Below are positions 42,567-45,091 of a stretch of DNA of 48,829 nucleotides, one piece after another (positions within the stretch are counted from its first letter, which is position 1; each line of letters opens with the position of its first letter). A model generated the notes under the pieces. The model was not told the DNA's origin and ran no database searches. It worked only from the letters and a program-made list of their open reading frames with translations. The stretch is taken from assembly GCA_945878865.1 (NCBI GenBank), contig CAMCUD010000029.1:1-48829 (forward strand). The letters are read 5' to 3'. The DNA comes from Bifidobacterium breve (GTDB lineage Bacteria; Actinomycetota; Thermoleophilia; Solirubrobacterales; Solirubrobacteraceae). Made by a program: the position numbers and the translations under genes.

Positions 42567-42911
42567 ATGGAGGCGATCGAGCAGATCGGCAAGGCGTTCG
42601 AGTGGGTCGGCGTGGCGGTCATCGTCGTCGCCGCGCTCATCACGCTGTGGGTCGGGCTGACGACCTGGCGGCGGGAGAGCGGCGACGCCGCGTACGTCGC
42701 CGCGCGCCGCGCGTTCGGCCGGGGCCTGCTGCTGAGCCTCGAGATCTTCGTCGCCGCCGACCTCCTGCGGACCATCTCCGTCGACCTCACGCTCGAGGGC
42801 ATCGGCGCACTCGGCCTGCTCGTCGTCATCCGGACGATCCTGAGCTGGTCGCTGGAGATCGAGCTCACCGGCACGCTGCCCTGGCGCGCCGGCGGCTCGG
42901 AGACCGGCTAG
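42567..42911 (+). CDS. DUF1622 family membrane protein
   Basis: A 114-residue protein with three hydrophobic segments (FEWVGVAVIVVAALITLWVGLTTW, RGLLLSLEIFVAADLLRTISVD, LGLLVVIRTILSWSLEIEL). The pattern LLLSLEIFVAADL...VVIRTILSW matches DUF1622 proteins. TACCCT (42554-42559) ends 7 nt before ATG 42567, so it is probably leaderless. The function is unknown. The end overlaps the convergent kinase gene by 4 bases. Confidence 0.85.
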   Translation: MEAIEQIGKAFEWVGVAVIVVAALITLWVGLTTWRRESGDAAYVAARRAFGRGLLLSLEIFVAADLLRTISVDLTLEGIGALGLLVVIRTILSWSLEIELTGTLPWRAGGSETG

Positions 42912-44371
42912 GCGGCTGCGGCCTGGAGCACCTCCGGGTGCCGGGCCCACAGGTCGCCGAGGATCGCCTCGACGTGGCGGAAGATGTCCGCGTCGGGCGC
43001 GAAGCCGGCGGTGAAGCCCGACAGGTACAGCAAGTTCTTGAAGAAGAGCACGAGCTCCTTGGGCATCCGGAACCCCTCGAGCGCCAGCACGCGCAGGGTG
43101 CGGCCGAGGGTGTCGCCGAGGCGGTCGAACGTCACGGCGCCGTCCACCCGGTCGCCGAGGCGGTCGGCCTCGTCCTGCAGCGCCGCGCTCAGGGCGGCCA
43201 GGTCGGCGCCTTCGGGGATCGCGCCGAAGCGGGCCATCGCGGCGATCTGGCCGGCGGCGTCGTTCGTCGCGAAGGCGGCGAGGAATGCGACGAGCCCGGC
43301 GCGCTGGGTGTCGTCGAGCCGGCCGCAGATGCCGAAGTCCACGAGCGCGAACGTCCCGTCGGGGCGGACGAAGACGTTGCCCGCGTGCAGGTCGCCGTGG
43401 AACAGGCCGTGGACGAGGGTGCTCTCCAACACGCCGCGGATCGCGAGTTCGACAAGCCGATCGCCGTCGACCCCCGCGCCGTAGACGGCGGGCGCATGGG
43501 CGTAGGAGACGCCGTCCATCCGCTCCATGACGAGCACGCGCTCGGTCACGAGGCCGGGGATCGGGCGCGGCACGGCGACGAAGTCCAGGCCCTGGCGCTC
43601 GAGCGCGAGGCCACAGTCGACAAGGTTCTGCGCCTCCAGGCGGAAGTCCAGCTCCTCGAGGGTCAGCTCGGCGAACAGCTCGACGAAGCCGGCGAGGTTC
43701 GCGGTGCGCGCGGCTGGATGCAGACGTTCGCCCAGTGCCGCGGCGAGCGCCATCGTCTCGATGTCCGCGCACAGACGGCGCCGCAGCTTCGGACGCCGGA
43801 CCTTCACGACCACGTCCGTCCCGTCACGAAGCACCGCGCGGTGGGCCTGCCCGATGGATCCGGCGGCGATCGGCTCGGGATCGAACGACGCGAGCGTGTC
43901 GTCGCCGAGCTCTGCCGCGACGATCCGCTCGGCCACGCCGGCCCGGAGCGGCGGCGCCTGGTCGCGACACCAGGAGAACGCGTCGACCCAGGCGTCGGGC
44001 AGCAAGCCGCGGCCGCTGGCGATGAACTGACCGAGCTTGATGTACGCGGGGCCGCCGGCCCGGACGAGCCGCTCTGCGCGCGCGAGCGCTCCGCTACTTG
44101 CGTCGGGTGGAGCGACGGGCAAGCCGGTGGCGCTGGCCGCCGCGCTGAGCAGCACCAGGGGCGCGTCGGGCGCCGCGGCGCCGGCGATGCGCCAGCTCGT
44201 CGAGGCGAACGAGGCGATGGTGTCGGTCCACAGTCGCGGCGTGGCGAGCGCGGCGGCGTCGCGCGCGGCGCGGCGTCGGACGGCGGGGAGCGTCGACTGC
44301 CAGACCCGGGCCTCTTCGGCCAGTCCAGGGCGGCCGTCGAGCCAAGGCGAGGCGCCAGCTGTATGTGACAT
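42908..44371 (-). CDS. ABC1/AarF/UbiB-family atypical kinase
   Basis: A 487-residue kinase-like protein. It has the KxGQ motif (YIKLGQFIASGRGLLPD), the Ala-rich nucleotide loop EPIAAGSIGQAHRA, the invariant lysine VVVKVRRPKL, the catalytic FHGDLHAGNVF and the metal-binding LVDFGICGRL. The family supports isoprenoid-quinone or lipid metabolism by an ATPase-like activity. The start is ATG 44371 (or 44386). It is divergent from the DUF4396 gene. Confidence 0.9.
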   Translation of the reverse strand: MSHTAGASPWLDGRPGLAEEARVWQSTLPAVRRRAARDAAALATPRLWTDTIASFASTSWRIAGAAAPDAPLVLLSAAASATGLPVAPPDASSGALARAERLVRAGGPAYIKLGQFIASGRGLLPDAWVDAFSWCRDQAPPLRAGVAERIVAAELGDDTLASFDPEPIAAGSIGQAHRAVLRDGTDVVVKVRRPKLRRRLCADIETMALAAALGERLHPAARTANLAGFVELFAELTLEELDFRLEAQNLVDCGLALERQGLDFVAVPRPIPGLVTERVLVMERMDGVSYAHAPAVYGAGVDGDRLVELAIRGVLESTLVHGLFHGDLHAGNVFVRPDGTFALVDFGICGRLDDTQRAGLVAFLAAFATNDAAGQIAAMARFGAIPEGADLAALSAALQDEADRLGDRVDGAVTFDRLGDTLGRTLRVLALEGFRMPKELVLFFKNLLYLSGFTAGFAPDADIFRHVEAILGDLWARHPEVLQAAAA

Positions 44372-44435
44372 GGATCGATGGTACATAGGCCAGCGACACC
44401 CCGGGAGTGGACATCGGTCACACGAAACGCCCCGT

Positions 44436-44452
44436 ATACCCCCTGGGGGTAT
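44436..44452. promoter_or_regulatory. CsoR-like operator ATACCCCC-T-GGGGGTAT
   Basis: A perfect 17-bp palindrome of the A/T-GC-rich type bound by CsoR/RcnR-family copper or nickel repressors (established for that family). It overlaps the -35/spacer region of the DUF4396 promoter. Confidence 0.65.
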
Positions 44453-44456
44453 CTGC

Positions 44457-44462
44457 TAGGGT
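44457..44462 (+). promoter_or_regulatory. -10 element TAGGGT, leaderless DUF4396 start
   Basis: TAGGGT ends 6 nt before the ATG at 44469 and follows the CsoR-like palindrome by four bases. Confidence 0.5.
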
Positions 44463-44468
44463 TCCCCC

Positions 44469-45041
44469 ATGTCCTCGCACGCGCACCATCACCACCACGC
44501 GCTGCCCACGGACGGTCGCGCGCTCACCGCCACCGCCCTCAGCGCGACGCTGCACTGCCTCACCGGCTGCGCCATCGGCGAGATCGCCGGCATGGCGATC
44601 GGCACAGCGCTCGGCCTCTCCAACGAGGCGACGCTCGCGCTCGCCGTCGGCCTCGCCTTCCTCTTCGGCTACGGACTGACCAGCCTGCCGCTGCTGCGCG
44701 CCGGCATGGCCCTCGGGGTCGTCGTGCCCATCGCGCTCGCGTCCGACACGCTGAGCATCGCCGTCATGGAGGTCGTCGACAACACGATCATCATGACCAT
44801 CCCCGGCGCCATGGAGGCCGGCCTGGGTTCCCTGCTGTTCTGGGGAAGCCTCGCCTTCGCACTGCCGGTCGCCGGCGCCGTGGCGCTGCCCGTCAACCGC
44901 TGGCTCATCGCCCGCGGCAAGGGCCATGCGGTCGTCCACGAGACCGGGGTGCACGGCGGGCCGTCGCCCAGGACCGTCGGCGCGGCCGCGGCCGGCGCGT
45001 TCCTCTTCGGCGCCGCGGTGCTGCTCGCCGAGGTGATCTGA
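44469..45041 (+). CDS. DUF4396 His-rich membrane protein
   Basis: A 190-residue membrane protein with about five segments. The N-terminus is MSSHAHHHHHAL (six His of ten residues). The first segment carries HCLTGCAIGEIAGM (His29, Cys30, Cys34, Glu38), and further segments include MEVVDNTIIMTIPGAMEAG. This is the DUF4396 pattern. Metal-binding residues plus the CsoR-like palindrome over its promoter suggest a role in copper handling, perhaps export or delivery. No CsoR gene lies in the window. Confidence 0.85.
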   Translation: MSSHAHHHHHALPTDGRALTATALSATLHCLTGCAIGEIAGMAIGTALGLSNEATLALAVGLAFLFGYGLTSLPLLRAGMALGVVVPIALASDTLSIAVMEVVDNTIIMTIPGAMEAGLGSLLFWGSLAFALPVAGAVALPVNRWLIARGKGHAVVHETGVHGGPSPRTVGAAAAGAFLFGAAVLLAEVI

Positions 45042-45047
45042 CCACCC

Positions 45048-45086
45048 GTGGTCTTTTTTCGTCGTATGCCGACGGAAAAAGACCAC
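45048..45086. terminator. bidirectional terminator palindrome
   Basis: Arms of 17 bp (45048-45064 and 45070-45086, 16 matching) carry a T6 tract in one arm and an A5 tract in the other. On the plus strand the small stem GACCAC-CC-GTGGTC is followed by T6, an intrinsic terminator for DUF4396. The reverse strand reads into T5 for the convergent gene. The runs are striking in this GC-rich DNA. Confidence 0.7.
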
Positions 45087-45091
45087 ACGGC

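Follow-up and report, generated by a model that had tools for sequence, protein, structure and literature searches.

The closest described counterpart of the locus studied here is the CsoR regulon of Streptomyces lividans, for which csoR, copZA1, and copZA2 are named as members and the operator rule is given as ATATACCCCTNAGGGGTATAT, or TAC-X9-GTA; DUF4396 is not among the members named in the accessible part of that source (PMC3902906). The accessible part of PMC4938975, which concerns the CsoR regulon of gut Firmicutes, lists no DUF4396 either. As for the DUF4396 family (PF14342) itself, it has no assigned function. The portion of PMC7760498 at hand mentions it in passing as the flank of a metal-resistance gene cluster; a full-text literature search found DUF4396 in no other paper, PF14342 in no paper at all, and no published function, and with subscription papers mostly outside its scope an earlier report is possible.

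The window, i.e., the whole 48,829-nt stretch of DNA analyzed, corresponds to contig C29 in a genome of 4.96 Mb and 79 contigs. As in S. lividans, csoR and copZ/copA of this genome stand under one operator type that follows TAC-X9-GTA, and the CsoR protein carries the ligands Cys, His, and Cys (C-H-C). In contrast to the members named for S. lividans, a DUF4396 gene is found here, alone under an operator of its own. The features of this gene are as follows.

44436..44452, no strand assigned: predicted CsoR-type operator, the perfect 17-bp palindrome ATACCCCCTGGGGGTAT (shuffles; fit to TAC-X9-GTA of PMC3902906)
44457..44462, plus strand: putative −10 element TAGGGT, 6 nt 5′ of the ATG (same layout with TAGGCT at csoR)
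44469..45041, plus strand: DUF4396 (PF14342) membrane protein of 190 aa with five predicted helices (profile match and structure model)
44478..44498, plus strand: N-terminal His run H4-H10 with six His (translation; His-rich N-termini in relatives)
44553..44582, plus strand: motif HCLTGCAIGE (H29, C30, C34, E38) of helix 1, a candidate for the Cu(I) site (invariance in 65 sequences)
44766..44780, plus strand: MEVVD (M100, E101, D104) of helix 3, which may supply the second part of the Cu(I) site (invariance in 65 sequences)
44925..44939, plus strand: motif HAVVH 3′ of helix 4 (H-x-x-x-H in 137/142 relatives)

The operator and the copper regulon of the genome

The preliminary description reported a perfect 17-bp palindrome over the promoter and took it for a CsoR-type operator; the first point is confirmed and the second is supported. 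The palindrome, ATACCCCC-T-GGGGGTAT, ends 16 nt 5′ of the DUF4396 ATG, has an expectation of 0 (no match when the window was dinucleotide-shuffled 100 times), and is the sole exact occurrence of ATACCCC-N1-5-GGGGTAT in the genome. It also has the form of a type 2 CsoR operator, in which TAC and GTA make an inverted repeat that spans 9 bp and contains G-tracts, here TAC-CCCCTGGGG-GTA. The leaderless start proposed together with it is plausible for this gene, as the spacing of TAGGGT and the lack of a visible Shine-Dalgarno sequence 5′ of the ATG both fit and csoR has the same layout. A leaderless start was rejected as a family trait, since leaderless-type geometry is seen in 20 of the 87 site-bearing relatives, a total that includes the window, vs 39 with a Shine-Dalgarno-like stretch instead. 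Directly 3′ of the DUF4396 stop lies an inverted repeat, GTGGTCTTTTT...AAAAAGACCAC (45048..45087, no strand assigned), with a T-run and an A-run, possibly a two-way terminator common to DUF4396 and the convergent gene.

No csoR had been seen nearby, so regulation had been expected to act in trans, and a profile search of the genome confirms the first point: its one CsoR-family gene is located on contig C11 (L001:1459-1755). The preliminary description would have been refuted by a genome with no CsoR/RcnR homologue, and it passes this check. The encoded protein matches PF02583 with 105.6 bits (cut-off 22.8), and its closest solved relative is S. lividans CsoR (4adz, E 3.1e-22), with which the Cys, His, and Cys ligands align, so that it has both marks of a Cu(I)-sensing CsoR, the PF02583 match and C-H-C. 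With the curated copper repressor model RicR (NCBIfam NF052430) it scores 114.6 bits vs a cut-off of 175, and on these profile scores the regulator is classed as CsoR-like and not filed as RicR. The csoR gene has a matching operator in its own promoter, ATACCCCGCAGGGGTAATGAGCTAGGCTGGGTCCATG, where the elements follow in the same order as at DUF4396 with nearly equal spacing.

According to a search of the whole genome, TACCC-N3-7-GGGTA occurs at 9 sites, vs 2 for the reversed pattern. Five of the 9 have the N5 spacing that corresponds to TAC-X9-GTA, the other four being N3 or N4, and these five belong to csoR, copZ/copA, the locus of a second heavy-metal P-type ATPase (two sites), and DUF4396, with none elsewhere. 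At copZ/copA the site precedes a CopZ-like HMA gene, and the next gene encodes an HMA-domain P-type ATPase; at the second ATPase locus (L013) the two sites lie 5′ of the ATPase gene and of its divergent neighbor. The second ATPase (L013:6794-9169) has CPD (ITCPDALGL) vs the CPC of CopA and an N-terminal His/Met-rich stretch.

The upstream site and the neighbors of DUF4396 in other genomes

PF14342 is present in 82/299 genomes of the host class and 50/396 genomes of the phylum. Relatives were taken at >100 bits only: 77 class rows, 75 of them fetched with flanks up to 5 kb and the window added as one more, and 35 further phylum rows, 25 of them fetched. Eleven rows were left out of the fetch; seven of these have shorter flanks, with the site in 5, and the other four stand outside the counts. 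The preliminary description named absence of the palindrome from other DUF4396 promoters as a second refutation, and the site proved to be widespread, occurring in 47 of the 101 upstream regions, of which 100 were fetched and one is that of the window. Dinucleotide shuffles of the same regions give a mean of 0.08 and a maximum of 1, the reversed pattern 0/101, eight permuted half-sites 0 or 1/101 each, and other windows of the same loci 13/1876. A leave-one-out matrix places 49/86 subtype I regions above the 99th percentile of 1419 control windows. By subtype, the site is found in 46/86 regions of subtype I (HC..GC..GE), 0/10 of subtype II (HCGAGC), 1/4 of subtype III, and 0/1 unclassified. 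Within the family, the copper operators of this sample thus accompany subtype I. As for the 80 named loci, the site is present in 47/64 from Actinomycetota and 1/16 others.

For larger counts the 12 named loci that duplicate unnamed ones were removed, and five Actinomycetota rows (L142 and four plasmid loci) were set aside, as the subtype motif does not show in the translated stretch; matches occurred in 22 plasmid records, from which six regions were opened and five entered the counts. The resulting 138 non-redundant subtype I Actinomycetota loci (window included) have the site directly upstream in 86 cases, and homologues of CsoR, CopA, and HMA at the same locus in 31, 27, and 27, respectively. 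Altogether, the fetched DNA of 112/138 contains the site, a homologue of csoR, HMA, or a copper ATPase, or more than one of these; that of the remaining 26, several of them on short contigs, contains none. The chance of a csoR falling in a 10-kb locus is estimated at well under 1%, at about one csoR per 2-5 Mb genome. In 12 loci csoR is directly upstream on the same strand. C-H-C is conserved in 33/39 CsoR matches near DUF4396, and two of the other six are fragments of one gene. Two loci, L076 and L077, have opposite-strand CsoR-family genes beside DUF4396 that lack the second Cys of C-H-C. Plasmid pKRAD01 of Kineococcus shows the order metal-sensitive regulator, HMA, P-type ATPase, and DUF4396.

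Presence of csoR genome-wide does not track DUF4396 (67/82 vs 163/217, p 0.28), and this co-occurrence was dropped as evidence because it does not discriminate. A CsoR hit is absent in 2/27 site-bearing class genomes (G221, 82% complete, and G041, 96% complete). At L092 a subtype II (HCGAGC) gene adjoins homologues of csoR and copA, and a link to copper may therefore extend to part of the other DUF4396 subtypes. On actinobacterial plasmids (L258 and L260) DUF4396 lies beside an F510_1955 glycosylhydrolase and near DUF305 genes. In Svornostia abyssi, the other genome of the host genus in the sample, DUF4396 is found in the same region (72.7% identity for a flanking gene) directly behind copA; no operator is recognizable near this pair, the best match having 5 mismatches in 14. 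There (L096, the same as L175) the copA reading frame is broken into two, and the ATG of DUF4396 does not share the frame of its domain, which suggests assembly indels or decay.

Outside Actinomycetota, the comparison is with the CueR/HmrR copper regulons of Proteobacteria, which are run by an unrelated MerR-type regulator; the operator signal follows the available part of PMC1526738, and the link of DUF4396 to CueR is drawn from operator sequences. The CueR-type dyad ACCTTCC-N7-GGAAGGT (at most 3/14 mismatches) lies within 700 nt upstream of either DUF4396 itself or an HMA-DUF4396 pair in 12/17 non-actinobacterial loci, 9 of the 12 with at most one mismatch, although many of the 17 come from Microvirga and are not independent. 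Shuffles give 37 dyads in 992 kb, i.e., about 0.4 expected. Of the 17, 11 contain an HMA homologue, in many cases as the gene immediately preceding DUF4396, and 4 contain a homologue of CopA. Two loci have CsoR-type sites instead, one in Caulobacteraceae (L203, exact) and one in Chromatiales (L193, ATACCATACGGGGGTAT, recognized by eye); csoR is directly downstream in both, and among the 15 genomes searched the two top CsoR matches come from these organisms. Neither operator type was seen at three Nitrospirae loci. CueR-type operators 5′ of most proteobacterial members go beyond what the preliminary description expected, and they provide the strongest evidence for copper control, because two unrelated regulators, CsoR and CueR, have operators at DUF4396. 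From the operator set of the genome itself, the CsoR sites of relatives, and the CueR dyads, it is therefore very likely that the HC..GC..GE subtype is regulated by copper.

The DUF4396 protein and its proposed part in copper handling

The product of the only DUF4396 gene in the genome is a clear member of PF14342 (E 1.5e-36, 126.3 bits vs a gathering cut-off of 27, residues 22-152). An NCBIfam search returned chance matches to MtnA models only, and a defence library gave no match. The six His among the first ten residues and the membrane helix bearing HC...C...E, both noted earlier, are confirmed as H4 plus H6-H10 and as H29-C30-x3-C34-x3-E38 in TM1. Across 65 sequences H29, C30, C34, E38, M100, E101, and D104 are invariant. 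At least three N-terminal His occur in 89/142 relatives, with His at 17.7% in the N-terminus vs 0.9% in the domain (start codons guessed). The predicted structure has five helices (pLDDT 86.3, pTM 0.79). Many relatives stop soon after helix 4; both His-rich tails would be on one side because they flank a four-helix core in those relatives, and Arg/Lys beside the C-terminal motif suggest that this side is cytoplasmic.

Comparison with solved structures revealed no convincing relative. A profile of the 65 sequences found nothing meaningful (best E 0.26), Foldseek of the model gave nothing at E ≤ 0.001 (best E 1.5), and the best VIA-align result (Z 7.0, 122 residues aligned, rmsd 3.8) is of a size usual for common helical arrangements. 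The highest Z values, with Mtr subunits and TRIC channels, fall in the range that the tool terms common.

The explanation that we consider probable is that HC..GC..GE DUF4396 is a membrane protein of copper stress that would be repressed by CsoR and may export copper or pass it to CopA. The trans-acting Cu(I) sensor CsoR would bind the promoter-overlapping palindrome and repress DUF4396; when Cu(I) fills its C-H-C site, it would release the DNA, and the probably leaderless mRNA would be made along with those of csoR, copZ/copA, and the second heavy-metal P-type ATPase. DUF4396 is predicted to sit in the cytoplasmic membrane, where the His-rich N-terminus and the HAVVH motif may catch cytosolic Cu(I), and H29, C30, C34, and E38 of helix 1 with M100, E101, and D104 of helix 3 may form a membrane Cu(I) site. 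Copper binding and transport are inferred from these residues and the His-rich tails. Direct handling of copper by the protein is likely; transport is a guess, because no known transporter fold was recognized.

For the same reason, and with no sequence relative among solved structures, one may ask whether the gene is induced by copper via CsoR while its product neither moves nor stores the metal, but protects the membrane or assists in maturing a copper enzyme or another metal-damaged target. The invariant H, C, C, E, M, E, and D inside helices, the His-rich tails, and the HMA-DUF4396 and copA-DUF4396 gene orders speak against such a role, which we regard as unlikely. Much less probable is that the operator is read by a CsoR-family sensor of persulfide, formaldehyde, or nickel and serves another stress response. 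Operators of the CsoR family resemble each other, as in the case of CstR, and the two CsoR relatives at L076 and L077 lack the second Cys; however, the only family member of this genome carries C-H-C and has Cu(I)-CsoR as its nearest relative, heavy-metal ATPases are under the same operator, and Proteobacteria have copper operators of the CueR type. Finally, the notion that the palindrome serves the divergent UbiB/ABC1-kinase gene (42908-44386, minus strand), whose ATG is 50 nt away, with DUF4396 as a bystander, was rejected as scarcely credible, since the other DUF4396 loci searched have no close ABC1 neighbor (one weak match lies 3.7 kb downstream) while the site stays with DUF4396 across loci.

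Returning to copper, the switches at the genes of relatives indicate that the DUF4396 family very probably helps cells cope with an excess of the metal. Possibly, though we offer this as a tentative idea, HC..GC..GE DUF4396 represents a new class of small membrane protein that acts as a Cu(I) transporter or a copper chaperone, with a fold unrelated to known copper transporters, and would have been recruited into the copper regulons of CsoR and CueR across Actinomycetota and Proteobacteria. A family found in more than a quarter of the genomes of the host class (82/299) thus acquires a testable function, copper homeostasis, with candidate copper ligands named for mutagenesis, and the results suggest that known copper regulons are missing a membrane component.
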